Assembly (NCBI GenBank): GCA_951799425.1
Contig: OX637397.1
Location: 14,530,064 to 14,594,063 of the forward strand
Direction: 5' to 3'
Length of the DNA stretch: 64,000 bases
Source: Ilex aquifolium
Taxonomy: Eukaryota; Streptophyta; Magnoliopsida; Aquifoliales; Aquifoliaceae
Part shown: one piece after another, positions 4,052-40,804 of the stretch
Numbering within the stretch: position 1 is the stretch's first letter
Layout: the number at the start of each line of letters is the position of its first letter
Made by a program: the position numbers and the translations under genes
The notes under the pieces: generated by a model
What the model saw: the letters and a program-made list of their open reading frames with translations, nothing else
The model's database searches: none
Told to the model about the DNA's origin: nothing

Positions 4052-4056
4052 ATTGC
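4052..4056. repeat. target-site duplication ATTGC, left copy (E1)
   Basis: ATTGC directly precedes the TG of the 5' LTR and recurs at 15104-15108 directly after the CA of the 3' LTR, the 5-bp duplication expected from a Ty3/gypsy integrase. Confidence 0.93.
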
Positions 4057-4651
4057 TGATGGGTCAGGCCCAAATGACCCAACTCATGTGGAAAACCTAA
4101 GTCTGTCGAAAGGCCCAAGTTTATAAGAAGACTCAACATACACTATGAGGTCCAAGCCGGTCAAAGTCCCTCAAGGAGCTACGTCATCATGGTTAACTTC
4201 AAGGGAACATCCAAGAGCCTCACCCCTGCCACTTGGAGAGAGTCAACTTTCCCTCAAGCATTGACCGAGTCTTTTGGAGCTCCCCTGCCCGTTGAGAAGA
4301 GGAGGGGTCGCCGAACCATTATTTACTATTAAAATCTTCTTAGTCCGTTGAGACCCCCTGCCTACCTGATTAATACCCATTATGAGGCAACCACTATAAA
4401 GTGTAAGTTTCCCCATCACTTGAGGGACATCTGACAAAAACCCGAAGCTCATCTTTCTCTCTTGTAATTCCCTGATCTCCTTACCTGAGTTAATAAACTT
4501 CCCGGCAAACTTAGCCATTGAAAGTGGACGTAGGTCTCGTTGACCGAACCACTATAATCCTTGTGTTGTTCTTGTCTTTCCTCTACTTATTATTACTGCA
4601 TTTTATACTATTACTTGACTGTGGTGTGCGAACCAATTTTGTGCATCATCA
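4057..4651 (+). repeat. E1 5' LTR (595 bp)
   Basis: Begins TGATGGGTCAGG and ends GTGCATCATCA, so it has TG...CA ends. Within it a TATAAA box lies at 4395-4400 and an AATAAA polyadenylation-type signal at 4492-4497. The end carries the GTGGACGTAGG...ACCGAACCACTATAA block that recurs in E2 and E3 and, in altered form, in the copia LTR at 58016. It should drive the sense genomic transcript. Confidence 0.95.
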
Positions 4652-4654
4652 GTT

Positions 4655-4672
4655 TGGCGCCGTCTGTGGGAA
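4655..4672 (+). other. E1 primer binding site
   Basis: Three bases after the LTR the sequence TGGCGCCGTCTGTGGGAA occurs. Its first nine bases fit the complement of the 3' end of plant tRNA-Asp (TGGCGCCGT); the remainder departs from it. E2 (TGACGCCATCTG) and E3 carry decayed versions. The tRNA identity is therefore likely but not certain. Confidence 0.7.
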
Positions 4673-4715
4673 ACGACAAAATTCTCATTTCTAGAAAATC
4701 TTCTCTGTCAAATCC

Positions 4716-6188
4716 ATGAATCCCCCTGAAAACAATCCTGTGCGAGAAGAGGAGGTTACTCCTCCTCCGCCCGCTAATCCGGTCCCGAATGCGCAGCAGA
4801 TGCTGGACACCATGCAGCAACTTATGGCCCAGAACCAACAGATTCTGCAGCTGATGCTTGGGCAACAAGGATTAGAGCAGCCCGGACTTCAAGCTAGGGA
4901 AGCTCCACTCCCTGGTCATCAAGAAGTTCCCCCTCCGGGCGCCCCCTTAGGCGCCCCACCCTTGGGCGCCCAGCCAAGGGGGGCCCACCATGATGGACCT
5001 CCTCTTCCAGCCCCTGCTCCTGCTCCCCATGGTGGAGACCCTCCTCTTCAAGAGGACGAGGGTGAAAACCAAAACATTGAGCATGAGAGTCATTTCCGTG
5101 GTAATTCCAGAGGACCTCCTCCCAATCAGTGGGATGAAAAAATTAAGGAAGTGCAGAATCAGCTGGGTGATGTTTTCAACGCCATGAAGGCACAGGGACC
5201 TGAAACAGTAGACTATCTAGTAAGTCGAACCGACACACCCTTCAAGCCTGACGTAGCTAATTACCCGCTTCCTCAAAAATTCAAGATACCATCTGTCGAG
5301 ACCTTTGACGGTAAAAAAGATCCACTGGACCACCTCGAAACCTTTAAGACTTTGATGCAGCTACACAATGCTCCCGACGAAATAATGTGTCGAGCGTTCC
5401 CAACCACCCTGAAGGGATCCGCTCGACAATGGTTCGCCAAGATTTCCCCCTCCTCCATTGGCTCGTTTGCTGAGCTGAGCAGGTCTTTTGTGTCACACTT
5501 CATTGGAGGACGTCGCCACCAAAAGCCTGCCACACACCTGCTGAGCATAAAGCAGGAGAGAGATGAGAGCCTGAGAAGCTACCTCACTCGTTTTAACGAG
5601 GAGGTCCTTCAGGTCGAAGAGCCCGATGAAAAGGTTAGCATGACCGCCTTCCTGGGTGGCCTCCGGTCATCGAGCTTCCTTTTCTCGGTGATGAAGCGCC
5701 CACCGAAAAGCATGCCTGAGTTACTAGCGAAGGCCTAGAAGTATATGAACGCTGAAGACATTACAAGGGCCAGACGAGGTGAGTCCTCGAGAACTGAGGA
5801 GAAAAGAAAGGAGAGAGACAGAGACGACAAGAGGGAGAGTAATAACAAGCGCGGCAGGACAGAAAGGATACCTGCCAAGGACCGTCTCAGACCCGCTCCC
5901 CAGAGAGAGCGACAAGCCTTCACTCCCCTTAACGCCTCTGTCGGGCACATCCTATTACAAATTCAGGATGATCCCACAGTGAAGTGGCCAGGGAGAATGA
6001 AGTCTCCTTCAAACCGCAGGAACCCAAGCAAGTATTGTCGCTTCCATCGCGACCACGGCCATGACACTGACGACTGCTACGACCTCAAAAGACAGATTGA
6101 AGAACTCATTCAACGAGGTCACCTACGCCAATATGTGGCCGGTAGAGGACAGGCACCGGCACCGCCTCGTAACCAGGAAGAACAGTAG
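4716..6188 (+). pseudogene. gag: E1 gag, interrupted by an in-frame TAG
   Basis: Encodes the structural Gag polyprotein that packages the element RNA. The ATG at 4716 opens a Pro/Gln-rich N terminus; a retrotransposon gag core follows (FPTTLKGSARQWFAKISPSS, about 5398-5460), then a basic Arg/Glu-rich stretch and a zinc knuckle of the form CX2HX4HX4C (CRFHRDHGHDTDDC, from 6036), a variant typical of Tat elements. The frame is broken by TAG at 5736-5738 in a context where relatives read Gln (CAG to TAG). TAG at 6186-6188 ends Gag and is followed in the same frame by pol; whether it is a natural readthrough stop or another CAG to TAG change is unclear. The segment 4937-4985 has several GGCGCCC units. 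Confidence 0.9.
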
Positions 6189-8430
6189 CCCATCGGGGAA
6201 ATTCACACCATCTCCGGAGGGCTTGCAGGGGGAGGAGAATCCCTCTCCGCAATGAAGACTCATGCCAGGAAAGCCAGGCATCCTGATGAATTACGCCCAT
6301 CTAAGGCACCAAAGCATGGCAACGACGAGGTCATATCTTTCTCGGACAAGGATTTAGAGGGAATTCAGCACCCCCATGATGACCCTCTAGTGCTTACCAT
6401 GACCGTCGCCAACTTCCAAGTGCGGAGAATTCTTGTGGACAGTGGCAGCTCTGCGGATATCTTGTTCGCAGAGGCTTATGACAAGCTCAACTTGGGCAGG
6501 GAGAGACTACAGCCTATCAGGTCACCCTTCATTGGGTTCTCCGGAGAGAAGGTGTATCCCCTAGGGTCCATCACCTTACCAGTCACTGCAGGTGTAGCAC
6601 CCCGAAGCTCCACAATCATGGTTAACTTCCTGGTGATAGATTGCCCTTCAGCATACAACGTCATTCTAGGCCGACCCGCTCTCAACACTCTAAGAGCGGT
6701 GCCCTCTACCTACCACCTCATTCTCCGCTTCCCTACCCCGAGCGGAGTCAGAGAGGTCCGGGGAGACCAGGTAGCTGCAAGAGAGTGCTACGTCTCCTCT
6801 ATGAAGGCGAGGAAGCCACAGGAGGCGCTGCAAGTAGAGGTCCTCGACCCAAGGGATGATGCCACTATAGAAAGAGGAGAACCAGTTGAGGAGCTCACCC
6901 CAGTGACCCTGGATGTTGAGTATCCAGAAAGAAAAGTGTACATTGGCTCTTCCCTTCCTGAAGACTTGGTCCGCCAGCTCATAGACTTTTTGAGGGGTAA
7001 TATGGACGTTTTTGCTTGGTCACATGCGGACCTGGAGGGCATCGACTCTGAGGTCGCCACCCACCGCCTCAACGTCGACCCTTACCACAAGCCTGTTCGC
7101 CAAAAACTGAGAGGTGCCTCCACTGAAAGGGCCCAAGCGATGGAAAAGGAGGTGGGAAAGTTGATAGAGAACGGAGCAGTTAGAGAAGTAGCCTATCCTG
7201 AGTGGCTCTCGAACGTGGTAATGGTGACGAAAGCTAATGGAAAGTGGCGCCTCTGCGTCGACTTTACTGAGCTCAACAAGGCGTGCCCAAAGGATAGCTA
7301 TCCACTACCACGAATCGACCTCCTTATCGACGCCACAGCAGGACATGAATTGCTCACCTTCTTGGATGCATACTCTGGGTATAACCAGATTAGCATGCAT
7401 CCCCCAGACCAGGAGAAGACATCGTTCATCACTCCAAGGGGAACCTACTGCTACAGGGTCATGCCCTTCGGGTTGAAGAACGCAGGAGCAACTTATCAAT
7501 GACTGGTGAACAAGATGTTCCAGTCGCAGATCGGGAGAACAATGGAGGTGTATGTGGACGACATGCTCGTAAAGAGTCTTGCAGCAGCAGATCATATTGA
7601 TCACCTCCAAGAAACTTTCAATGTTCTCAGATCATACCACATGAAGTTGAATCCTGAAAAGTGTGCCTTTGGCGTAGGCTCAGGAAAGTTCCTTGGCTTT
7701 ATGGTCAACCAGAGAGGAATTGAGGCGAACCCCGACAAAATCAAGGCAATCTTAAATATGAAGTCACCGTCCTTAACCAAGGAGCTCCAGCGCCTCAATG
7801 GGAGAATTGCAGCGCTCAATAGGTTCGTCTCCAAATCTGCAGACAAATGTCTGCCTTTCTTCAAAATTCTCCGAAAGGCTTTCGAGTGGGGACCTGAGGC
7901 AGAAGAAGCATTCCAAAAGCTTAAACTCTACTTGGCTAAACCTCCACTCCTTTCACACACTACATCTGGTGAGACTTTATATCTATACCTTTCTGCTTCC
8001 CGATCAGCAGTGAGTTCGGTCCTCATCAGGAACAGTGACGGGGTACAGAGGCCGATTTATTATGTGAGCAGGGCATATCGGGGAGCGGAAGTCAGATATT
8101 CAGAACTAGAAAAATTAGCACTAGCCCTCATCTCAACAGCTAGGCGCCTGCGGCACTACTTTCAGAGTCACACTATTGTTGTCATCACAGATCAGCCTCT
8201 AAAGAGAGTATTGGGGAAGCCAGATGTATCCGGGAGACTCCTAAAATGGGCAGTGGAACTAGGCGAGTTCGACATCCAGTACCAGCCAAGGGCGGCTATC
8301 AAAGCGCAAGCCTTGGCAGATTTTGTCGCGGAGCTTACACCAATAGGGGAGGTAAATGAATATTCTACGCTCCAGACATCGAGTCCGGACACCCAAAGCA
8401 AGGTGATACACAACGAGGACACTAGGGCAC
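6189..8430 (+). pseudogene. pol: E1 pol part 1: protease, reverse transcriptase, RNase H
   Basis: Continues in the gag frame. It starts with PIGEIHTISGGLAGGGES, a conserved Tat gag-pol junction. The aspartic protease has its active site in VDSGSSADIL (Asp codon at 6438) and a later NVILGRP. The reverse transcriptase shows CVDFTELNKACPKDSYPLPR, FLDAYSGYNQI, MPFGLKNAGATYQ and the catalytic YVDD at 7551-7562. The RNase H follows (YLSASRSAVSSVL to QALADFVAELT, ending about 8340). TGA at 7500-7502 sits between ATYQ and LVNKMF where relatives have Arg (CGA to TGA), which truncates RT before its catalytic motif. No frameshift is present. Confidence 0.92.
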
Positions 8431-8936
8431 CCACCCCTGGTGCCCAGACACTCCTGGGCGCCCAGGCCTCCTCTGCAGGCGCCCAGACCTCCTCTACAGG
8501 CGTCCAGGCCTCCTCTGCAGGCGCCCCGACCTCCTCTACAGGCGCCCCGACCTCCTCTGCAGGTGCCCAGACCTCCTCTGCAGGTGCCCAGGCCTCCTCC
8601 GCAGGCGCCCAGACACTCCCGAGTGTCCAGCCCTCCTCTGCATGCGTCCAGGCCTCAGGCGCCCAAACCTCCTCTGCAGGCATCCAGGCACTCCCGGGCG
8701 TCCAGGCCTCCTCTGCAGGCGTCTAAGCCTCCTCTGCAGGCGCCCAGACCTCCTCTGCAGGCATCCAGGCACTCCCGGGCGTCTAGGCCTCCTCTACAGG
8801 AGCCCAGACCTCCTCTGCAAGCGCCCATACCTCCTCCGCAGGTGCCCAGACACTCCCGGGCGTCCAGGCCTCCTCTGCAGGCGTCCAGGCCTCTTCTGCA
8901 GGCGCCCAGACCTCCTCCGCAGGCACCCAGCCTGGA
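8427..8936 (+). repeat. 21-bp minisatellite encoding the tether between the two RNase H domains
   Basis: A tandem array whose units read GCAGGCGCCCAGACCTCCTC, with variants. In the pol frame it encodes roughly 20 heptads of the type AGAQTSS/AGVQASS, a Gly/Ala/Gln/Thr/Ser-rich flexible linker. Some units carry an insertion (CACTCCCGGGCGTCCAG). Two units have become stops in frame: TAA at 8724-8726 and TAG at 8784-8786, both at the Gln position of GVQ. The same CGCCCAG word also recurs in E1 gag, in the antisense gene and in E2 and E3. The open frames on other strands and frames across the array are by-products of the repeat. Confidence 0.9.
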
Positions 8937-10718
8937 GCCTTGCCACCCAATCTTGTTTCTTTGACTCCCTCAGTGATCTCCGAACTCTCCTCTTCGCCGC
9001 TTTGGAAGCTTTATGTGGATGGATCATCAACCCGTGAAGGAGGAGGGGCTGGCTTAATCCTAATCAACCCCGAAGGCGCTACCATCAAGTACGCTGTGAA
9101 GCTCCACTTTATCGCCTCCAACAATGAGGCAGAATATGAGGCCCTCCTCTCTGGACTTAGATTGGCAATCAAGATGGAGGCTCAACACCTCATCACTCAC
9201 AGCGACTCTCAGCTAATAGTCAACCAAGTAAATGGCGAGTTCGAAGCAAAGGGAGCCAGAATGCAGGAGTACCTTGTCATGGTGAAAGCCTTGGTCGCCA
9301 AGTTTAAAATTTTTCAAATCTCCCATATCCCGAGGGAGGAGAACATGGCCGCTGATGCACTAGCCCGGCTCGCCTCGTCCTTAGACGCCCCACCAGGACC
9401 AACATTCATGGGTCACCAGTTAGAACCAAGCAGGTTAGACATGGAAGCTACAAGTATCAATTGTGCATCTGCCGAGACAAACTGGATGACCCCAATAAAG
9501 GCATACCTCCAGGAAGGTGCGTTGCCTAATGACTCTAGTGAAGCCAGGAAACTCAGGATGAGAGCCTCCAAATTTACTATTTTTCAAGATACCCTGTACA
9601 AAAAAAGGTACTCCTTACCGTTATTGCGGTGTCTTTCGCCTGAAGAGGCAAACTATGCCCTGCGGGAGATCCATGAAGGGATTTGTGGGAATCATTCTGG
9701 AGGGCGCTCCCTTGCCCACAAGGCGCTCAGACAAGGCTATTTCTGGCCTAGTATGATGAGGGACGCCCATGAATTTGCCAAGAAGTGCGACAAATGTCAG
9801 CGCTTCGCCACTGTGCCCAGACAACCACCAGAGGAGCTCACAGTCGTCACAAGCCCATGGCCCTTCTCCAAATGGGGCATCGACATCCTAGGTCCCCTAC
9901 CTCTCAGCAAAGGACAGTGCAAGTTCGTGGTGGTAGCGGTGGACTACTTCACTAAATGGGCGGAGGCAGAACCCTTAGCAAAAATAACAGACGTCAAGGT
10001 AAAAGATTTCATCTGGAAAAACCTGGTCTGTCGCTTTAGGATACCCCACGCCATTGTCAGCGACAATGCCAAGTAGTTCGACAACAAGCTCCTGAACTCC
10101 TTCTGCTCAGACCTTCAAATAAAGCAACCTCATTCCAGCCCGGCACACCCGCAGGCAAACGGGCAGGCTGAGGTCATGGTGAGAACGGTGCTGCGTAACC
10201 TAAAGACAAGGCTCGAAAAGGCAAAAGGTCTTTGGGTCGAGGAGCTCCCAGGCGTATTATTGGCCTATCGGACCACACCAAGAACTCCAACCGGAGAAAC
10301 CCCCTTCTCCCTCGCCTTTGGAACTGAGGCAGTCATTCCTGTGGAGATCGGGGTGCATTCTCTAAGGGTCCAACACCACGACCCTGTCACCAATGAGGAA
10401 GGACTCCGCATCAACCTCGACTTAGTAGAGGAGGCAAGGGAGATGGCTGTGGTCCGCAACGCGGAGTACAAGCGTCGCATGGCAAAATACTACAACTCGA
10501 GGGTGAAGCCTCGTTCCTTCCAACCAGGAGACTTGGTCCTTAAGAAAGTGATCCTAGCCATAAAGGATTCACGAGAAGGAAAACTGGGACCGAATTGGGA
10601 AGGACCCTACCTCATAATAGAAGTGGTGAGGCCGGGTACCTACAAGATACAGGGTTGTGAGGGGAAAGTTTTGCCCCATCCATGGAATGCCGAGCACTTG
10701 AAGAGGTACTATCAGTGA
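8937..10718 (+). pseudogene. pol: E1 pol part 2: second (archaeal-type) RNase H and integrase
   Basis: Same frame as part 1. A second RNase H starts at WKLYVDGSSTREGGGAG (about 9002) and runs through NNEAEYEALLSGL, THSDSQLIVNQV and REENMAADALARLAS (about 9380). This extra domain, distinct from the RT-linked one, is diagnostic of Tat elements. The integrase has a zinc-binding N terminus (ICGNHSGG ... CDKCQ), a catalytic core with GIDILGP, a DN pair in IVSDNAK, and a downstream QANGQAE, consistent with a DDE triad, followed by a basic C terminus ending near PWNAEHLKRYYQ (stop 10716-10718). TAG at 10074-10076 interrupts the core just after the second Asp, where relatives have Gln. Confidence 0.92.
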
Positions 10719-10978
10719 CATCTTGAGAGACTCAAAGTAGAAAAGCTGGGAACTTGATTTTATTTTCTGTACTTTTTTGGGGCGGTTGCTCGATATTGCT
10801 TTTTCAGAAGCAATAAAATAAATAAAACAAAATTTCTAGATTCACTCAAAAAATCTTTGCATTTTTGTATTCAAGATCAAAAGGTCAAAACCACTACCAC
10901 TTTCACAAAAGTAGGGCTACAAAATGCTTTTCAAACAAAGAAATAAAGAAATTCTTAAATCAAAAAGTCCCTAGCACT
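10719..10978 (+). other. spacer between pol and the antisense gene
   Basis: Short AT-rich noncoding segment. AATAAAATAAATAAAAC at about 10810 could serve plus-strand 3' processing, and TTTATTTT near 10759 reads AAAATAAA on the minus strand, downstream of the antisense gene. Neither assignment is proven. Confidence 0.35.
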
Positions 10979-13914
10979 CTAACTGCTCTCGTGGTCGTCA
11001 TTCTCCTCCTCGGCATCCTCTGAACCTCCATCACACTCAAGCGCCTCAGTCGCCACAAAGACTGAAACATCAATATTGGGGTAGACAGCGGAAATCTTTC
11101 CCCGAAGCTCCTCATAGCCGTCAATGAAAGCTTCGGCAGTGCCATACTTCAGGTCCGCCTCAGCCCGGGAAGCTCTCTCTTGAGCAGTCTTCACAACTGC
11201 CTCTGCGGTAGCCTCTCTGAGCATGGCCCTCTCGCGGGTCTTTGCAAGCTCAGCCTCGAGTTTGGCCACCCGCCCATGGGTCGTTGAAAACTCAGCCTCT
11301 CTGAGCATGGCCCTCTCGCGGGTCTCTGCAAGCTCAGCCTCGAGTTTTGCCACCCTCCCATGGGTCGTTGAAAACTCAGCCTCTTTGAGCATGGCCCTCT
11401 CGCGGGTCTCTGCAAGCTCAGCCTCAAGCTTGGCCACCCTCCCATGGGTCGCCGAAAACTCAACTTGGGTCTTTGCAAGCTCAGCCTCACTGAGCGTGGC
11501 CCTCTCACGGATCTCAACAAGCTCATCCTCGAGCCTGGCCACCCTCCCATGGCTCGCCAAAAGCTCAGCCTCAAGACCAGTCGCCCTCTTGTCAAAAGCA
11601 CTCCCAGCAGCTTCAAGTTCTGTGATCCTCCCCTGAGCAGCTAGAAGTTCATTTTTCACAACTTCATGGGTTTGCTTCAACTGGTGATAAAGGAGGGTCC
11701 TTGCAAACATACACATAGATGCTGTTGAGGCCTGGAAAAAAAAAAACAAAAGGCAAAAAGATGTCAGAAATGTATGAGAGGAAGGGAGGAAAGGGAGATA
11801 ATAAACCCTTACCTGAGTCCAACTTTCCAAGTAAGAGCGGAGAATTCTATCGGTGCCCATGGAACCGAGCTCGGTCACATCCCTGGAACACACAAACTTC
11901 CCAATCCGATCCCTAATGAGCGGCAGGTTACCCAGCATAGAGATACCCTGAGAATGTATCCCAGAAGAAGTCCCCACAGGAGAAGATGGAGGGAAAATAG
12001 AAGGTGCAGCCGATAGGAGAAACTCCGGAGTAAGAGGTACAACTGAGGGTGTAGGCACCACTGGAGGGGGCACTGGACCAAAGGGAGCCCTAGGAATCAC
12101 TAGAGGAGTTGATTGAGGAGAGCTCCCCTCGGGCGGTACCATTGGAGATGTCACTTGGGAGACCTGGCCCGTCTTCATCATCTCAGGGACCCTTGCCACC
12201 TTGGGAAGAGGAGGACTCCTACCAGAGAGGAGAGACCCAATCGCCTCCCTATCTATTGCTGCAAATAAATAAAGTGTTAAAAAAAAAAAAAAAGGTACGA
12301 GATTAAAAGAAGGTACGAGATGGTCAACTCACTTTTTCTCTTCAAAGAGGAGCCGCCAGACTTAGGGGTGGCACGAACTCCGGGCATGAGGACTCCAATA
12401 TCTTTTTCAGGATAAGCCTTCACCGCCTGCAGTTTCCACTCTTGACCCTTGGAAAGCACAATAGGATCTGCAAAAGGGATGATGAGTAAAATACAGGAAA
12501 CACACAAAAGAGTTAAAACAAGTATGAAGCTTACCAAGCTCTTTGGGGGTACTCCATCCCCGTAGTACCGAAGCTCTATCGGCCTCAGCAGCCCATTCTC
12601 CACCGACAAATAGAAAACGGGATTTCCAAGTTCCACAGTTGGACTTCAGTCCAGTGATCAGCTTGTCTCTCGTTGAAAAGTAATACCAACCCCGATTGGG
12701 AGCAGGGGTCTCGCTCAGAGTATAAGCTCCATGAAACTCCTTCGGAGAGGCATCCTCATGGTGCACTTTTTTCCACAACACCAAAAAGCATAGCAGAACT
12801 CTCCAGCCGTTGGGTGACAATCGCCCCGGGGAGAGTGAAAAATATTCGAGGATGCGACAGATAGGAGGGGACATGGGAAGTCGGAGCCCAGCCTCAAACA
12901 TCTCCTCATAAACAACAATATCCCCAGAAGAGTCATCAGAGGCGGGCTCATCCATCTCGGCCCGACGACATAACACAGTCAGAGGAATATGGTAGGTGGA
13001 AACAATCCGCGAAATATCATCTGAAGTTAAAGTACTAAAGATAGTATATACCTTGGACCCATCGTCAACTATTTTGCTTCTGTATTTTTTCTTACGGAGG
13101 CTCTGAAGAGTTTGACCTTGAGTAGCTACATTCCGAGGAACGGGATCATCACCAACACAAGTGTCAGGTCCACCACAGGCACTAAGTGCAGCTCCTTGCT
13201 CATCCAAAGCCCCGACCTCGCCAAAAATCCTCAAACAAGCACCCAAAACGCGCCCAGACAGCTCGCCCAGACAGTCCGCGCGCCCAGGCAGTCCGCGCGC
13301 CCAGACAGCGCGCCCAGGCAGTCCGCGCGCCCAGGCAGAACGCCCGGACAGTCCGCGCGACCAGACAGCGCGCCCAGGCAGTCCGCACGCCCAGATCCGG
13401 CCTGGACAGTCTGCTCGCCCGCTTGGCTTCCCAAGGCAGCCTATTCGCTCACCTGGACAGCCTGTTTGCTCGCTTGGACAGCAGGGACAGCCTGTTTGCT
13501 CTCCTGGACAGCAGGGACAGCCTGTTTGCTCGCCTGGACAGCAGGGACAGCCTGCTCAGCACGACGAGCAGCCTGCCTTGTTCGCCTCTCCACAGCAGCT
13601 ACACGATCAGGCAGCACACCCAAGCTGTCCAGCCCTTTTCCTTGCTCACCTAAATCACCCAAATCACCCCCAAAAAGGGAGCCTAACACTTCTTTCTCGT
13701 GCACAACCGGCGCACTCCCAGCAACACCTAATGGCCCCTCCATTCCACCACCATGGCCATCTTCTCTCAAGCTCCCACTTCGGTCATTAACGTCTCCTTC
13801 TTCTTCAATAACAGTGGGTATTTGCTTTTCTTGTTCCACAACCGACATGGCCTCCAAATGCTCAAACTCAAGAAAGTCAAAACTTGGTCCCCAAAGAATT
13901 TCAGAAAAGTTCAC
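10979..13914 (-). CDS. E1 antisense multi-exon gene: Transposase_28-like domain plus long coiled coil
   Basis: Reading the minus strand, I infer exons 13914-13453, about 13246 or higher to 12535, 12467-12333, 12258-11813 and 11731-10979. The last three introns (67, 74 and 81 nt) all have GT...AG ends with pyrimidine-rich 3' parts, and every splice keeps the frame (G|AT, A|CA and phase 0). Exon 1 ends at CCAG|GTGAGC; its acceptor lies in a repeat and is not resolved. The second exon contains EMFEAGLRLPM and LSPNGWRVLLCFLVL, typical of the plant 'putative gypsy type transposon' domain (Pfam Transposase_28). The last exon is a heptad-rich coiled coil with repeats such as HGRVAKLEAELAETRERA. From 13246 the product is about 681 residues, more with exon 1. 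No in-frame stop occurs, unlike gag-pol. Function is unknown; antisense extra genes are known in the Tat lineage (for example Grande). Confidence 0.72.
11218..11540 (-). repeat. 84-bp tandem repeat in the coiled-coil exon
   Basis: Three near-identical 84-bp units (from about 11218) plus a degenerate fourth encode 28-residue repeats on the minus strand. 28 is four heptads, so the repeat extends a continuous coiled coil without breaking its register. E2 carries an unrelated-length 78-bp array (26 residues) in the equivalent place. Confidence 0.85.
13225..13560 (-). repeat. GC-rich CGCCCAG array and 30-bp repeat near exon 1 of the antisense gene
   Basis: Two adjoining arrays. 13250-13400 is built of CGCGCCCAGACAG/CGCGCCCAGGCAGTC units. 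13440-13550 has three units of a 30-bp repeat (CCTGTTTGCTCGC, then TGGACAGCAGGGACAG) that encode AVPAVQASKQ on the minus strand. The exon 1 donor falls at the edge of the second array, and the missing acceptor probably lies in or next to the first. Repeat-length change here could have altered the splice structure. Confidence 0.75.
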
Positions 13915-13973
13915 CTTTATGTCTCAATGGAGTGGGTGAGGTGAATGAATGAGCAAGAAGGAAGGAAATTTCC

Positions 13974-13981
13974 TATTTATA
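13974..13981 (-). promoter_or_regulatory. TATA box of the antisense gene
   Basis: On the minus strand the sequence reads GGTATAAATAGG, a near-perfect plant TATA box, 60 bp upstream of the ATG at 13914 with a CT-rich leader between (TTCCTTCCTTCTTGCTC). It lies inside the element, not in the LTR, so the antisense gene would have its own promoter. Confidence 0.65.
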
Positions 13982-13984
13982 CCT

Positions 13985-14507
13985 AGGGTTTTTTCAAATC
14001 CAATTGAAGGAGGGAAAAAGGAAAAACAAAAAGGCCCAAACCCAAAACCAAGGGCTCTTCAAGAATGAAAAGAAGGAAGTAGAAGAAGGAGTATAGCTAA
14101 TGGAGTTCCGAAAAGAAAAAAAAAAAAATCGGATTTAAAAGGGGTTATTTTGATAGTAACTCCGAACGGGACGGGTAATATGTCAAAACTGAAGCTCTCG
14201 ACGAGCCGAGCAAAACTCATTCCCGTTGGCAATGAGTTTTTCAAAAAAAGGTCAAAAAAGGCTTAGAAACAAGTATTTTGACCTCCCAAAGTTTCAGAAA
14301 AAAAAAAAAAAAAAGAAATTTTGCTGCTCGCCCAGGACATTGCCTCCTCGCCTAAGACACCACCAGCTTGCCCAAAAGCTGTCTGAAACGGACATGTTCT
14401 GGCCTTCCGAAGTTTTTCCAGTTTGGTCGGTCAACCGAAAAATCAAAACTCAAAATTGAATGCCCTCCTTTCCAAGTTCCGTTAGACGCAGGGCATTGGA
14501 GGGCAAA
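13985..14507 (+). other. E1 3' noncoding region and polypurine tract
   Basis: Noncoding DNA with CTCGCC repeats near 14325-14370 and, directly before the 3' LTR, GCATTGGAGGGCAAA (14493-14507), the polypurine-tract position. E2 (27303-27319) and E3 (40198-40211) have matching tracts at the same place. A run of A at 14299-14314 is a simple repeat. Confidence 0.6.
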
Positions 14508-15103
14508 TGATGGGTCAGGCCCAAATGACCAAACTCATGTGGAAAACCCAAGTCTGTCGAAAGGCCCAAGTTTATAAGAAGACTCAACATACACTATGAG
14601 GTCCAAGCCGGTCAAAGTCCCTCAAGGAGCTACGTCATCATGGTTAACTTCAAGGGAACATCCAAGAGCCTCACCCCTTGCCACTTGGAGAGAGTCAACT
14701 TTCCCTCAAGCATTGACCGAGTCTTTTGGAGCTCCCCTGCCCGTTGAGAAGAGGAGGGGTCGCCGAACCATTATTTACTATTAAAATCTTCTTAGTCCGT
14801 TGAGACCCCCTGCCTACCTGATTAATACCCATTATGAGGCAACCACTATAAAGTGTAAGTTTCCCCATCACTTGAGGGACATCTGACAAAAACCCGAAGC
14901 TCATCTTTCTCTCTTGTAATTCCCTGATCTCCTTACCTGAGTTAATAAACTTCCCGGCGAACTTAGCCATTGAAAGTGGACGTAGGTCTCGTTGACCGAA
15001 CCACTATAATCCTTGTGTTGTTCTTGTCTTTCCTCTACTTATTATTACTGCATTTTATACTATTACTTGACTGTGGTGTGCAAACCAATTTTGTGCATCA
15101 TCA
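14508..15103 (+). repeat. E1 3' LTR (596 bp)
   Basis: Matches the 5' LTR over its whole length apart from 4 substitutions (near the start twice, in CGGCGAAC, and in GTGCAAACC near the end) and an extra T in CACCCCTTGCC. Same TATA and AATAAA positions. Confidence 0.95.
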
Positions 15104-15108
15104 ATTGC
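15104..15108. repeat. target-site duplication ATTGC, right copy (E1)
   Basis: Identical to 4052-4056. Confidence 0.93.
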
Positions 15109-23816: not shown

Positions 23817-24413
23817 TAATGGATCAAGCCCAAGGGCCCAACTCATGTTATAAGTCCAGTCTGAATTAATAGCCCAACTCCAAGAGATACAACAAGTCCA
23901 GCTCAAAGTGGTCCACGCCCGGTCAAGCTCATCAGATTCGAGGAGCTACATCAACAAGGGAGCATGTAGGGTCATCCAAGAGCCTCATCCACACCGCCTT
24001 GGAAATAGTCAACCCCCACATCATCATTTGACCGAATCCTATGGAGAGTACCGTAACTACCTCATCAGTTGAGAAGAGGGCGTTAGTTCCACCAGATCAG
24101 TCACTTAGTTAATAATAACTCGCCCAAATCTGTTATGAGGCGACTATAAATCGTAAACCCCACCAATACTTGGGGGGCATATCACACTCAATTGAGCACA
24201 TATCTCCTCTCCCTCTCATAGCTTGTAATTATCTGCTCTCCCTACACACTTGAAATAATAAAACACCCGGCGACCCTAACCATTCAAAGTGGACGTAGGT
24301 CACGTTGACCGAACCACTATAAATCTTTGTGTTTCTATCTCTCTCTACTTTACTAATGTATTTATTACTACTCATCTGATAGGTGTTGTACAAACCCAAT
24401 TTGTGCATCATCA
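23817..24413 (+). repeat. E2 5' LTR
   Basis: Ends GTGCATCATCA like E1. Its first bases are TAATGGATC where all other copies have TGATGGGTC, so the terminal TG has mutated to TA. It contains CTATAAATC (about 24144) and AATAAAAC (about 24258). Confidence 0.9.
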
Positions 24414-24475
24414 GTTTGACGCCATCTGTGGAAAAGACAAAATTCTCACTTCTAAACACTTTCTTTATTGAATCT

Positions 24476-25570
24476 ATGGCGATCACCACCAAATCTATGA
24501 ATCAGCCTAAAGATAATCCACCACGAGAGGAGGAGGTTGCTCCTCCACCAACCAATCATGTTCCAAATGCACAACAGATGCTGAAGACAATGCAACAACT
24601 CGTAACTCAGAATCAGCAGATCCTGCAACTGATGCTTACTGGACAACAAGGAAGAGCACAGCCCGGAGGACCTCAAGCCAGAGGAGCTCTGCACCTTGGG
24701 CGTCAAGAAGCTCCCCACCTGGGCGCCCCCTTGGGCACCCCATACAAGGGAGCCCCGCGCCAAAACCACGAGGCACCTCCACCTCCTCCTCAAACTCCCT
24801 CTTCACATGGTGGAGACCCCCATTTCCAAAAGGATGAGGGCGAAAATCAAAGTGTGGAGCATGAAAGACATTTCCATGACAATTACAAAGGAGCCCCAAA
24901 TCACTGGGACGAAAAAATCAAAGAAATACAGAATCAACTGGGTGACGTCTTCAACGCTATGAAAGCACAGGGACCAGAGATAGTGGACTACCTTGTAAGG
25001 CGAACCGACACACTTTTCAAACCTGACGTGGCGAACTGCTCATTTCCTCAAAAATTTAAGATGCCATTCGTCGAAACCTTTGAAGGTACGAAGGATCCAC
25101 TGGACCACCTCGAAACTTACAAGACCTTGATGCAGCTGCACAACGTCCCCGACGAAATCATGTGTAGAGCGTTCCCAACCACCTTGAAGGGATCCGCTCG
25201 GCAATGGTTTGCTAAGCTCTCCCCAGCCTCCATTGGTTCCTTTGCTGAGCTAAGCAGGTTCTTTGTGTTGCACTTTATTGGAGGACGTCGCCACCAAAAG
25301 CCTGTCACCCACCTGCTCAGCATAAAGCAGGACTGAGACGAGAGCCTAAGGAGTTACCTCACTCGTTTTAACATGGAGGTCCTTCAGGTCGAGGAGCTCG
25401 ATGATAAGGTCAACATGACCGCTTTTCTAGGAGGCCTCTGGTCATCAAGCTTCCTCTTCTTAGTGATGAAACGTCCACCAAAGAGCATGCCTGAATTGTG
25501 GGGAAAAGTTCAGAAATACATAAATGCCAAAGATCTCACCAAAGCCAGGCGAGGTGAGTTCTTGCAATCA
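24476..25570 (+). pseudogene. gag: E2 gag
   Basis: ATG at 24476 opens a Gag like that of E1 (NAQQMLKTMQQLVTQNQQIL; FPTTLKGSARQWFAKLSPAS). A TGA at 25334-25336 interrupts it in IKQD-stop-DESLRSYLTRFN; the frame then stays open to about 25567, ending after KARRGEF. The zinc knuckle and the whole gag-pol junction are missing, removed by the internal deletion. E3 breaks at nearly the same Gag position. Confidence 0.88.
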
Positions 25571-25594
25571 TCATCACCACCTGCGCCAACTCTA

Positions 25595-25830
25595 AAAAAA
25601 AGCCACAAAGGCACAGGCATCAACAGATTTTGTGTTTGAGCTCACACCGCTTGAGGAGAGAGACGGTCAAGAAGACTCAGCCACAAGCGCCCAACACCCA
25701 GACGACAGCCCCAGGCGCCCAACACTAGACGCCCAACACTAGGCGCCCAGCCCATGCGCACACCCTCAGGCGGCCAGCTCCAGGCGGCCAGCACCCAAGC
25801 GCCCAGCTCCTCAGCGCCCTCCTCATCTCA
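25595..25830 (+). pseudogene. E2 remnant of RNase H end and CGCCCAG tether
   Basis: AQASTDFVFELTP (about 25610-25650) matches the AQALADFVAELTP end of the E1 RNase H. It is followed by an array of GGCGCCCAACAC/GGCGCCCAG words (about 25688-25820), equivalent to the E1 tether. So the deletion joined the end of Gag to the end of the first RNase H, then jumped from the tether into the antisense coiled-coil region. Confidence 0.75.
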
Positions 25831-25879
25831 ATCTATTTGTACTGTGCCTCTGGCTTGGTGACCTTCCCATGGGCTAAAT

Positions 25880-26590
25880 TCTCTACTCTACTCTACTCTA
25901 CTCTCAAGCAGGAACTCTATCTCCAACTTAGCGGCTCTCTTGTGGGTTGCCAAAAAGTTTGGCCTCTACTTTGCTCTCAAGCAGGCAGCCTATACCTCCA
26001 GCTGAGCGGCTCTCTCGCGGGTCACCAAAAGCTTAGCATATCTCTGCTCTGCTCTCAAGCAGACAACCTATATCTCCAACTGAGCAACTCTCTCGCGGGT
26101 CGCCAAAAATTTGGCCTATCTCTGTTCTGCTCTAAAGCAGACATACTATATCTCCAGTTGGGCGACTCTCTCGCGGGTCGCTAAAAGCTTGACCTATCTC
26201 TGTTTTGCTCTCAACCAGACAACTTATATCTCCAGTTGAGTGGCTCTCTCGCGGGTCGCCAAAAGCTTGGCCTATCTCTGAGCTGTTCTCAAGCAGCAAC
26301 CTATATCTCCAGCTGAGCGGCTCTCTCGTAGGTCGCCAAAAGCTTGGCCTATCTCTGCTCTGCTCTCAAGCAGATAACATATACCTCCAGCTGAGCGGCT
26401 CTCTCGCGGGTCTCCAAAAGCTTGGCCTATCTCTGCTCTGTTCTCAAGCAGGCAGCCTATAACTCCAGCTGAATGGCTCTCTTGTGGGCTGCCAAAAGCT
26501 TGGCCTCTGCTCTGCTCTCAAGTAGGCAGCCTATATTTCTAGCTTAGCGGCTTTCTCATGGGTCTCCAAAAGCTCGGTCTCAAAGGTGTA
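25880..26590 (-). repeat. 78-bp tandem array of the antisense coiled coil (E2)
   Basis: About nine units of 78 bp, with GAGCGGCTCTCTCGCGGG and CCAAAAGCTTGGCCTATC as landmarks. The minus strand encodes 26-residue repeats around LLATRERAAQLE, interrupted by TAG codons, so the former antisense coiled-coil gene is dead here. The unit is 26 residues, not a multiple of seven, in contrast with the 28-residue unit of E1. Plus-strand frames over the array are by-products. Confidence 0.85.
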
Positions 26591-27319
26591 GCTCTCTCAC
26601 GAGCAATCCTCAGACTCTGTATTTGTTCTCACGCAAACAGTCTGCCTCTCTCTCCAGGTAATTATGTTAGATATTATGATGTTGGAATAACATTGTTTTT
26701 ACCATCTCCAGACATAGTTTTGAAACTCAGGCTGTCTACAACCCACAAGACTATATTAGATTGAATGTCAACAATCGGGTCTCATCTTTTTGCACCCGTC
26801 CAGCAGCGCCCAGTGCTATAGGCGCTCGTCCAGCAACGCCCAGCGCCATGGGCAGCCCTCCAGCAGCACCCAGCCCCATAGGCGGCCCTCCTGTGAGCCC
26901 AGCCCACGCAGCAGCCCTCCTACGAGCCTAGCCAGTGCAAAAGCCCCTTCTGCGCACGCAACATCCCCTCCTACACACCCATCCAGAGCAGCAGTTCCTT
27001 TTGCGCATGCAACAGCCCCTCCTGTGAGCACAACAGCCCCTCCTGCGCACAGCCAGCGCAGTCGCTTCTCCTGCGCGCACGTCCAGCTCGCCCACCTCTA
27101 AACAGGGCCCATAATATATCAAATCGAAGCTTTCGGCGAGCCCTACAAGGATCATTGCCTTTGGCTACGATGGACGTTGTTAAAATCCCAAAAAAATTCT
27201 AGAAGCATCTGTTTTGGCCTCCCGAAGTTTTTCCAATTGTGCGTTCAGCCGAAATTCAAACTCAACCGAATACCGTCCGCTCCAAGTTCCATTGAACGCA
27301 GGGCATTGGGGGGGACAAA
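26591..27319 (+). other. E2 3' region with CGCCCAG-rich segment and polypurine tract
   Basis: Noncoding. GTCCAGCAGCGCCCAGTGC-like units run from about 26805 to 27090. The last bases before the LTR are GCATTGGGGGGGACAAA. The whole segment is collinear with 39540-40211 of E3. Confidence 0.7.
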
Positions 27320-27919
27320 TGATGGGTCAAGCCCAAGGGCCCAACTCATGTTATAAGCCCAGTCTGAATTAATAACCCAACTCTAAGAGATATAACAAGT
27401 CTAGCCCAAAGTAGTCCACGCCCAATCAAGCTCATCAGGTTCGAGGAACTACATCAGCAAGGGAGCATGCAGGGTCATCCAAGAGCCTCATCCATACCGC
27501 ATTGGAAAGAGTCAACCCCCACGTCATCATTTGACCAAATCCTATGGAGAGCACCGTAACTGCCTCATCAGTGGAGAAGAGGGCGCTAGCTCTGCCAGAT
27601 CAGTCACTTAGTTAATAATAACTCACCTAAATCTATTACGAGGCGACTATAAATTGTAAGCCTCGCCAACACTGAGGGGGGGGCATATCACACTCAATTG
27701 AGCACATCTCTCCTCTTTCTCTCATAGCTTGTAATTCTCTACTCTCCCTACACACTTGAAGTAATAAAACACCCGGTAACTCTAGCCATTCAAAGTGGAC
27801 GTAGGTCACGTTGACCGAACCACTATAAATCTTTGTGTTTTTATCTCTCTCTACTTTACTAATGCATTTATTACTGCTCATCTGATAGGTGTTGTACAAA
27901 CCTAATTTGTGCATCATCA
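27320..27919 (+). repeat. E2 3' LTR
   Basis: Begins TGATGGGTCAAG and ends GTGCATCATCA; about 50 substitutions from the 5' LTR. GTAAC follows at 27920-27924. Confidence 0.9.
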
Positions 27920-28617
27920 GTAACAACACCATACTGTTTGAGCAATTAAAGAAAATACGTTGATTTAGATTCTAAAGTACGTGGAACATCCTCAAATGTT
28001 TTTTTGTGGATTAAAGCGAATAAGATATGTTTTTTATCCTACGCTTCCTTAACATGTTTTACAATTCCCAACATCATAAATCACTAATTTTTTTTAAAAA
28101 TAATCCATGGACTATTTCGGATGGTTATGATGACATCGGTAGTCAAGGAATAAAGAACATAAAAGTCAAAGTCTAAGGGTATAAACCATAGTTTTAAAAC
28201 CCGGCCCAGATATCAACTCGGTAGAGGGACCGGGTCAATGGGTCACTGTTTCAACCGTTGGGTCACTGGTCGAACCGGTCATATAATAAAAAATAAATAA
28301 TTATTATAAATAATAATAAATAGGCTAAAAAATTACAATAATTATGATAATAACAGTAAATATGTAAAGTTAAGTATAGAAAAATCATCAAAACATATAT
28401 CCAATGCATTTAATTTCCAATACAAATTAAGATACATAAAGCAATAAATCCAACATCATCTCATTTCACACATCAATAACATCCCAACAATATTGTAAAT
28501 TGTTAGAGTGTTGTAAATTGTTGTAAATTCTCTAATTTCATTTCACAACAACAATAATAACAATAAGTCAATAACCATTAAATTATATAATTTGTTTGGT
28601 TCAAAAAAATATAGTAA

Positions 28618-37671: not shown

Positions 37672-38263
37672 TGATGGGCCAAGCCCAATGACTCAACTCA
37701 TGTTATAAGCCTAGTCTGAATTAATAGCTCCACTCCAAGAGATCTAGCAAGTCTAGCCCAAAGTGGTCCACACCCGGTCAAGCTCATCAGGTTCGAGGAG
37801 CTACATCAGCAAGGGAGCATGCAGGGTCATCCAAGAGCCTCATCCACGCCGCCTTAGAAAGAGTCAACCCCCACGTCATCCTTTGACCGAATCCAATGAA
37901 GAGCACCGTAATCACCTCATCTGTTGAGAAGAGGTCGTCAGCTCCTCCAGATTAGCCACTTAGTTACTAATAACTCGCCCCAATATGTTATGAGGCGACT
38001 ATAAATTGTAAGCCCTGCCAACACTTGGGGGGCATCACACTCAGTCGAGCACAACTCTCCTATGTCTCTCAACTTGTAATTCTCTGCTCTCCCTACACAC
38101 CTGCAGTAATAAAATACCCGGCGACCATATTCATTCAAAGTGGACGTAGATCACGTTCACCGAACTACTATAAATCTCTGTGTTTCTATCTCTCTCTACT
38201 TTCTTACTGCATTTATTACTATTTACTTGACATGTGGTGTGCAAACCAATTTGTGCATCATCA
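37672..38263 (+). repeat. E3 5' LTR
   Basis: TGATGGGCCAAG to GTGCATCATCA, with CTATAAATTG (about 37999) and AATAAAATAC (about 38108). Closer in wording to E2 than to E1. Confidence 0.9.
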
Positions 38264-38323
38264 GTTTGACGTTGTCTATGGGAACGACAAAATTCTCACC
38301 TAAGTACATCTCTTGCTGCACTT

Positions 38324-39345
38324 ATGGCGGTCACCACCAGATCCATGAATCAGCCTGAAGATAATCCACCACGAGAGAAGGAGGTTGCTCCTCCACCAAC
38401 CAATCCTATTCTAAATGCACAGCAGATGCTAGAGACAATGCAACAGCTCGTAGCCCACAATCAACAAATCCTGTAACTGATGCTTACTGGACAATAAGGA
38501 GGAGCACAACCCGTAAGACCTCAAGCTAGAGGAGCTCCACACCCTGGGCGTCAAGGAGCTCCCCACACAGGGGAGCCCACCATAAGGGACCTCCACCTCC
38601 TCCTCCAGCTCCCTCTTCTCATAGTGGAGACCAACATTTTTCAAGAGGATGAGGATGAAAACCAAAGCGTGGAGTATGTGAGACATTTCCACGATAATTT
38701 CAATTGAGCTCTCAACCACTGGGACGAAAAAATCAAAGAAGTGCAGAATCAGCTAGACGACGTCTTCAACGCCATGAAGGCATAAGGACTCAAGACAGTA
38801 GACTACCTCGTAAGGCGAACCGACACACCTTTTGTACCCGACGTGGTGAACTACCCATTTCCTCAGAAGTTCAAAATGCCATCCGTCGAAACCTTTTGAC
38901 GGTACAAAGGATCCACTAGATTATCTCGAAACCTACAAGACCTTAATGCAGCTGCACAACGTCCCCGACAAAATTATGTGTAGAGCATTCCCAACTACCT
39001 TGAAGGGATCAGCGTGACAATGGTTTGCCAAACTCATCCCGGCCTCCATAGGCTCGTTCGCCGAACTGAGCAGATCCTTTATAACACAGTTCATTGGTGG
39101 ACGTTGCCAGCAGAAGCCTGCCACCCATCTGCTCAGCATAAAACAAGATTGAGACGAGAGTCTGAGGAGTTACCTCACTCGTTTTAACGAGGAGGTCCTC
39201 CAAATTAAGGAGCCCAATGACAAAGTCACCATGACCGCCTTTCTGGGAGGCCTCCGCTTATCGAGTTTCCTCTTTTCAGTAATGAAGCGACCACCAAAGA
39301 GCATGCCAGAACTATTGGCAAAAGCTCAAAAATATTGAATGATGA
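38324..39345 (+). pseudogene. gag: E3 gag, heavily decayed
   Basis: ATG at 38324 begins a Gag like that of E2 (MAVTTRSMNQPEDNPP). A TAA appears at about 38475 where relatives have Gln, and further stops and frameshifts follow, for example near 38704, 38785 and 38898 and TGA at about 39150. Homology can be followed to LAKAQKY and then ends at a GGTCCAGGTGAGGTGA block equivalent to the RARRGE codons, after which the sequence jumps to the coiled-coil region. Confidence 0.82.
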
Positions 39346-39364
39346 GGAATCAACAGGTCCAGGT

Positions 39365-39640
39365 GAGGTGAATTATCTCGCGGATCGCCAAAAGCTTGAC
39401 CTATCTCTGCTCTGCTCTCAAGCACGCAACCTATATCTCCGGGTAAGCGGATCTCTCGCGGGTCAACAAAAGCTTGGCATTTGCTCTGCTCTCAAAGCAG
39501 GCAGCTTACCTCTAGTTTAGTGACTCTCTCACGGATCGTCAAAAGTTCGGTCTTAAAAGGTGTACCTCTCTCATGAGTAATCCTCAGACTTTGTCTTTTC
39601 TATAATGCAAGCAGTCTGCCTCTTTCTCCAGGTAATCATG
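39365..39640 (-). repeat. E3 remnant of the antisense coiled-coil array
   Basis: Two to three copies of the same 78-bp unit as E2 (CTCTCGCGGATCGCC, CCAAAAGCTTGACC), all decayed. E2 keeps about nine. Confidence 0.75.
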
Positions 39641-40211
39641 TTAGATATTTTGATGTTGAAATAACATTGTTTTTACCATCTCCAGGCACACTTTTGAAAC
39701 TCAGGTCTTCTGCAACCTGCGAGACTATATTAGATTGAATGTCAACAATCGGGTCTCATTTTTTTGCGTCCATCCAGCAGCGCCCTGCGCTATAAGCACC
39801 CGTCCAACAGCGCCCAGCACCATGGGCGCCCGTCCAGCAGCGCCCAGTGCCATAGGCGTCCCCTCCAGCGCGCCCAGCCAGTGTAGTAGCCCCTCTTGCA
39901 TGCGTAGTGGCCCCTCCTGTGCGCCCAGCTAGCGCAGCAGCCCCTCATGCGCGCGCATCCAACGCAATCTCCTCTCCTGCGTGCACGACCAGCTCGCCCA
40001 CCTCTACACAGGGCCTATAATATATCAAATTGAAGCTCTCGGCGAGCCCTACAAGACTAACTGCCTATGGTTGTCATGGATGCTATTAAAATCCCAAAAC
40101 AGGCCTAGAAGCATTTGTTTTGGCCTCCCGAAGTTTTTTCAGCCGAAATTCAAACTCAACCGAATGTCTTCCTCTCCAAGTTTTATTGGACACAAGGTAT
40201 TGGAGGGAAAA
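39641..40211 (+). other. E3 3' region with CGCCCAG-rich segment
   Basis: Collinear with E2 26640-27319, including TGTCAACAATCGGGTCTCAT and CCAGCAGCGCCC units at 39770-39990. Ends in the purine tract before the LTR. Confidence 0.7.
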
Positions 40212-40804
40212 TGATGGGTCAAGCCCAAGGGCCCAACTCATGTTATAAGTCCAGTCTGAATTAATAGCCCCACTCCAAGAGATCCAGCAAGTCCAGCCCA
40301 AAGTGGTCCACGCCCGGTCAAGCTCATCAGGTTCGAGGAGCTACATCAGCAAGGGAACATGAAGGGTCATCCAAGAGCTTCATCCACGCTGCCTTGGAAA
40401 GAGTCAACCTCTACGTCATCCTTTAACTGAATCCTATGGAAAGCACCGTAACCACCTCATCTGTTGAGAAGAGGTCGCCGGCTCCACCAGATAAGCCACT
40501 TAGTTACTAATAACTCGCCACAATCTGTTATGAGGCAACTATGAATTGTAAGCCCCGCCAACACTTGGGGGACTTCACACTCAGTCGAGCACAACTCTCC
40601 TATGTCACTCAACTTGTAATTCCCTGCTCTCCCTACACACTTGAAGTAATAAAATATCCAGCAACCATAGCAATTCAAAGTGGACGTAGGTCACGTTGAC
40701 CGAACCACTATAAATTTTTGTGTTTCTATCTCTCTCTACTTTATTACTGCATTTATTATTGTTTACTTGACAGGCGGTGTGCAAACCAATTTTGTGCATC
40801 ATCA
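40212..40804 (+). repeat. E3 3' LTR
   Basis: TGATGGGTCAAG to GTGCATCATCA, followed by the CATTC duplication. Confidence 0.9.

Follow-up and report, generated by a model that had tools for sequence, protein, structure and literature searches.

A probable multi-exon antisense TRP28 gene in a Retand-type retrotransposon family of holly

The window, a stretch of 64,000 nucleotides from the holly Ilex aquifolium (contig OX637397.1) to which all positions refer, contains a Retand-type Ty3/gypsy element that we named E1 (4057-15103). It is flanked by a duplicated target site, ATTGC (4052-4056 and 15104-15108), and its two LTRs are 99.16% identical, with four mismatches and one gap. As already noticed in the initial annotation of this DNA, the gag-pol frame of this copy is interrupted by six internal stops (5736, 6186, 7500, 8724, 8784, and 10074). 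The domains recognized in pol come in the order RT_RNaseH, RVT_3, then Integrase_H2C2 and rve, i.e. a second RNase H lies between RH and INT. This matches the scheme for Retand and Ogre, which share the same domain order in the accessible part of Neumann 2019. The region between pol and the 3' LTR is long (10719-14507, ∼3.8 kb) and carries a Transposase_28 domain (PF04195, hereafter TRP28) on the minus strand. E1 is classified in the Retand lineage (Tat clade, Ty3/gypsy) by this domain order together with the antisense TRP28 region. Two shorter relatives of E1 with LTRs and a gag fragment, E2 (23819-27921) and E3 (37672-40804, with a duplicated flank CATTC), lie in the same window; the searches made found neither a TRP28 nor a pol match in them.

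Features of the E1 element and of its antisense gene model (positions in the window)
Feature	Position	Strand	Description
5' LTR	4057..4651	+	595 bp
gag-pol	4716..10718	+	single frame; gag, RT, RH, second RNase H, and INT recognized
Exon 4	10979..11731	-	coiled-coil-like; 84-bp (28-residue) repeats; acidic tail
Intron 3	11812-11732	-	81 bp, phase 0, GT-AG
Exon 3	11813..12258	-	proline/serine-rich linker; KRK run at upstream border with exon 2
Intron 2	12332-12259	-	74 bp, phase 1, GT-AG
Exon 2	12333..12467	-	135 bp
Intron 1	12534-12468	-	67 bp, phase 1, GT-AG
Exon 1	12535..13848	-	broken in E1; ATG at 13848, TRP28 encoded close to the 3' end
Tandem repeats within exon 1	13249..13554	-	site of frame loss in E1; length differs among sister copies
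Core promoter	13966..13999	-	AAACCCTA then TATAAATA
3' LTR	14508..15103	+	

The minus strand of the region downstream of pol harbors the candidate gene detailed in the table. A TATA box, TATAAATA, begins at 13981, as originally reported, and is preceded by AAACCCTA, which we take to be telobox-like. Three GT-AG introns whose removal keeps the frame had been proposed; all three are present, with acceptor ends one base away from where they had been placed. After removal of the introns, the core reads open for 681 codons from 13246, in agreement with the initial estimate of ∼680, and its frame is open back to 13555, giving 785 residues for 13555-10979. The longest minus-strand reading with at most three strong introns comprises 887 codons (the path was not traced), compared with 290 codons on the plus strand. 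In 200 first-order Markov resamplings, the median was 117 codons and the longest reading reached 313, so the antisense reading is more than would be expected by chance. The predicted product matches PF04195 at residues 111-161 (profile positions 1-52 of 69) with 42.3 bits (E = 8.6e-11), the curated cut-off being 26.2 bits, which confirms the Transposase_28-like domain suspected earlier. In addition, it contains two basic runs, RKKK (51-54) and KRK (280-282), and exon 4 displays weak matches to coiled-coil models, below the Pfam cut-offs. Among solved structures, a T-cell receptor chain and designed PPR proteins gave matches that were weak (best E = 0.0053, for the PPR proteins) and taken as chance, and a fold prediction for exon 1 from one sequence (pLDDT 34) was not interpretable.

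Contrary to the initial annotation, which described the whole antisense gene as intact, the gene is not intact in E1: its core is unbroken, but the first exon does not continue into it in the same frame. Instead of the 60 bp reported initially, 133 bp separate the TATA box from the first ATG (13848), whose frame differs from that of the core and closes at 13441. This rules out an intact gene in this copy, and E1 is a partly decayed member of its family. In the core frame, a Met is first encountered at 12955, which leaves the TRP28 match downstream of it. A cryptic splice within exon 1 bridging the two frames is possible in principle, as there are weak candidate pairs. We did not rely on it because two sister copies in which exon 1 is open in one frame from the aligned ATG (L016 and L018) need none; both have a stop later in the gene.

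When the genome was searched with part of exon 1, at least 40 copies of the family were found (40 scored of 556 candidates, all matching). Twenty stretches of 7.6 kb were sampled as sister copies, two of which (L015 and L027) were dropped as rearranged, leaving 18 copies that, together with E1, make 19 aligned rows. In L015 (G000:C1:20119759-20127359), the antisense gene region is present in at least three tandem copies, ∼1.4 kb apart. None of the 19 rows, E1 included, has an antisense gene that stays open over its whole length when read from the aligned ATG. In 4/19 rows the core (13207-10979) is unbroken and retains all six splice dinucleotides, and in 7/21 neither stops nor frame breaks occur in three pieces of pol. 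The view that the antisense gene is better kept than gag-pol is thus not supported, and the contrast between an intact antisense gene and a broken gag-pol fails for the family. A related idea of the initial annotation was that the antisense product of E1 itself may be under separate constraint; the gene might then be maintained, perhaps even domesticated, while gag-pol decays. In line with such an idea, gag-pol has six stops and the core of E1 has no stop or frame break, whereas in 14 of the 18 sister copies the core is damaged by one or more stops, indels that break the frame, or altered splice dinucleotides. Maintenance specific to E1 is nevertheless very improbable, because the exon bearing the ATG is broken, the LTRs are still 99.2% identical, which leaves little time for separate selection, and the gene belongs to a family with at least 40 copies.

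The alignment also reveals how exons and introns vary within the family. Exon 2 is 135 bp long in all 19 rows, and exons 3 and 4 each differ in length from those of E1 by multiples of three in 18/19 rows (E1 counted). Intron 2 has 14 different lengths in the 19 rows, whereas introns 1 and 3 are less variable (67 bp in 16/19 and 77 bp in 15/19 rows, respectively). Retention of a 77-bp intron 3 would shift the frame; in E1 the length of this intron is divisible by three and its frame is open, so that a transcript retaining it would encode 27 more residues and leave the protein unbroken. Each of the six splice dinucleotide sites is kept in 16-18 of the 18 copies, the mean for other intron dinucleotides being 15.5. 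Distinct indels relative to E1 are mostly in-frame in exons 2-4 (15 in-frame and 2 not) and mostly not in introns (6 and 18, respectively; Fisher p = 9e-5). Part of the exon 4 indels are whole 84-bp repeats, which preserve the frame anyway, but the difference is also seen when this repeat-bearing exon is left aside and exon 3 alone is considered (4 in-frame and 1 not; p = 0.036). Frame is not favored in exon 1 upstream of 13230, which comprises the N-terminal part and the repeats (21 in-frame indels and 52 not), and the downstream part of the exon has three distinct indels, none of them in-frame, with 14/19 rows in the register of E1.

We then estimated selection within the family. For the antisense core, dN/dS is 0.51 in frame, compared with 0.68 and 0.75 in the shifted frames, and for pol it is 0.21-0.35. 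In these separate estimates, which had been suggested initially, the antisense core is under weaker constraint than pol within the family. Among the variants shared by at least two rows, stops account for 2/175 in frame, compared with 10/174 and 24/175 in the shifted frames.

The promoter region was also compared across copies. TATAAATA is present in 18/20 copies despite diverged surroundings, and so is the aligned ATG (18/20); in the aligned copies AAACCCT or a near form is found directly upstream of TATAAATA. Between 13840 and 13990 of the window and in the corresponding part of sister copies L009-L028, there are at least four unlike versions of the 5' untranslated part and N terminus, most of the core being ∼95% identical. 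Such unlike 5' versions over a nearly identical core look like the outcome of module exchange.

More diverged TRP28 genes were identified by searching the genome with PF04195, which gave at least 150 loci over the cut-off (150 scored of 5,837 candidates, all passing). The same search gave none in 14 control genomes (0/14), and no relatives were confirmed in viral contigs. Eight further loci were compared with L029, L030, and E1. The exon 1 stretches form an E1-like group and a second group, which are 27-32% identical to each other. In all nine exon 1 sequences, donor 1 (GT) is located one base after the same aligned residue, in phase 1. Of the 36 pairs compared for the TRP28 exon, 16 have a dS between 0.3 and 1.6, and every one of these shows a dN/dS within 0.08-0.21; six other pairs are less diverged (0.12-0.72), and the remaining 14 are between-group pairs in which dS is saturated or nearly so. 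For exons 2-4, comparisons among L064 and the L029-like sequences give a dN/dS of 0.10-0.58, and the comparison of E1 with L065 gives 0.65 for exon 3, which is weakly constrained, and 0.38 for exon 4. Upstream of exon 1, AAACCCT is absent in all six L029/L030-type loci examined, and a TATA-like site ∼480 bp above the ATG is found in two of these six. The low dN/dS between diverged copies, the in-frame indels in exons 2-4, and the donor common to distant sequences support constraint at the protein level, and the antisense protein is, as judged from these sequence comparisons, under purifying selection.

An alternative is that the functional product is the antisense RNA, as a source of dsRNA or siRNA damping the element, with the open frames being relics. 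This has been proposed as possible (in the accessible part of PMC7264820), and it would fit with both the lack of a wholly open gene in any of the 19 rows and a within-family dN/dS that is just moderately low (0.51). We consider it quite unlikely, however, because the TRP28 exon has a dN/dS of 0.08-0.21 at dS 0.3-1.6 and shared stops are depleted.

Outside the family of E1, introns 2 and 3 appear less certain than intron 1 because a strict gene-model search produced a model for E1 only (0/10 other sequences) and the models obtained with loosened settings were mixed. With these loosened settings, applied to 11 sequences, the best-scoring three-intron models have phases 1,1,0 for E1, L029, L030, L063, and L064. 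The other six sequences were unsupportive: the phases were different in L062 and L065, the model of L059 had to include a stop, and L060, L061, and L066 gave no model. This search is permissive, with 14-64 models for each sequence that gave any. When a query with joined exons was used in two genome searches, no unbroken match was found among the 40 candidates scored in each (of 314 and 219, respectively). Among these candidates the genome thus holds no trace of a spliced transcript, a result that agrees with replication via the sense RNA and is no proof of splicing.

These findings bear on whether the region encodes separate intron-less antisense ORFs, i.e. a TRP28 ORF and a Smc/coiled-coil ORF, each making its own protein. 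Vicient 2025 (PMC11963269) counts 104 antisense ORFs, 57 of them with TRP28, and lists the Smc-like ones apart; moreover, exon 4 of E1 is part of a 449-residue frame that runs open through intron 3. Separate ORFs are nevertheless unlikely, considering that donor 1 has the same place and phase in 9/9 sequences, phases 1,1,0 recur in the best models, exon 2 has a constant length of 135 bp in 19/19 rows, and no promoters or starts proper to separate ORFs were seen. The sequence evidence points to what is probably one multi-exon gene and not a set of separate ORFs, although the copy carrying it here is itself partly broken. We are highly confident that the family has a real multi-exon coding gene.

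Antisense TRP28 ORFs, for which DNA binding is predicted, have been described in 97% of recently active Retand clusters, together with Smc-like antisense ORFs (Vicient 2025, PMC11963269). The combination of TRP28 and coiled coil, which the initial annotation thought might be undescribed, is therefore known. The gene in E1 resembles these ORFs in its location between pol and the 3' LTR, antisense orientation, PF04195 domain, extra Smc-like ORFs, and tandem repeats. It differs in that the published ORFs were obtained with ORF Finder, the word "intron" occurring zero times in the main text of that paper, whereas the present model is a four-exon gene with a donor common to diverged sequences. What is added to the known antisense TRP28 and Smc-like ORFs of Retand is thus that they are probably parts of one multi-exon gene under purifying selection. 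A literature search of titles and abstract openings recognized no report of introns in a TRP28 gene; Gomez-Orte 2013 and the Steinbauerova extra-ORF paper were outside this search, and an earlier description is possible. Vicient and Casacuberta 2020 (PMC7264820), in its accessible part, calls for a search for spliced antisense transcripts. A close parallel in these sources is gene23 of maize Grande, an antisense gene in the same place with its own upstream promoter and a nuclear product according to the passages on it in PMC7264820 and PMC11963269. In E1, the conserved TATA box marks a putative promoter of this kind, and the basic runs RKKK and KRK might bear on a nuclear location of the product. 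Ogre and EVADE are also plant LTR elements with functional introns, being exceptions among generally intron-less elements in the accessible part of PMC12786077, where, unlike those of the E1 antisense gene, their introns serve their own sense RNAs. Antisense TRP28 ORFs, although widespread in Retand, have so far been catalogued one by one. Should they instead be exons of a single gene, the relevant protein would be different and much longer, and gene finders would be reading fragments.

We consider it likely that the gene is an antisense accessory gene of a Retand element, made up of four exons under a TATA promoter of its own and interrupted by three introns that are kept by the following logic. 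An integrated copy would be transcribed from the 3'-LTR side and the antisense transcript would be spliced. Exon 1 encodes the TRP28 domain, exons 2 and 3 a linker with a basic run, and exon 4 a coiled-coil-like stretch and an acidic tail. The predicted protein may self-associate into oligomers and act in the nucleus on element or host DNA, its most likely task being to regulate transcription of the element. A role of the antisense product as a nuclear regulator is a possibility that we hold with slightly less than even confidence. Reverse transcription would use the sense RNA, in which GT-AG pairs of the opposite strand are not splice signals, and the antisense introns may persist because the element replicates through this RNA. 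Whether the strand asymmetry of Retand carries the introns through retrotransposition, with integrated copies being the sole source of a spliced, nuclear DNA-binding regulator with a coiled coil, is in our view an even call. If the antisense ORFs are exons of one gene, a simple rule would follow: retroelements can preserve introns in genes that run antisense to the RNA they replicate through. HBZ of HTLV-1 is spliced and has a leucine zipper. It is named in PMC11963269, and its likeness to the gene described here is at most functional (an antisense accessory gene of a retroelement encoding a nuclear regulator); we do not claim homology.

Finally, a few minor observations were made on related sequences. 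At two loci, the TRP28 gene is followed a few kb downstream by a second PF04195 domain with the same orientation: at L029 (L067:769-1416 (+), E = 3.4e-10) and at L064 (L068:4-783 (-), E = 8.5e-9), the latter with an acidic tail at its end. Provided that both domains lie within one element, there are possibly two tandem antisense TRP28 genes per element at these loci. No match to E1 pol was found in L067 or L068 by which the TRP28 genes of the L029 and L064 families could be oriented. In E2, 78-bp repeats show weak similarity (E = 0.003) to the coiled-coil exon of E1. The pol linker, antisense exon 1, and the smaller elements E2 and E3 contain GC-rich minisatellites (8443-8930, 13249-13395, 25687-25810, 26792-26920, and 39766-39878 of the window) whose cores are similar and GCGCCCAGAC-like, which gives the impression that a single repeat has spread both inside elements and from one element to another.
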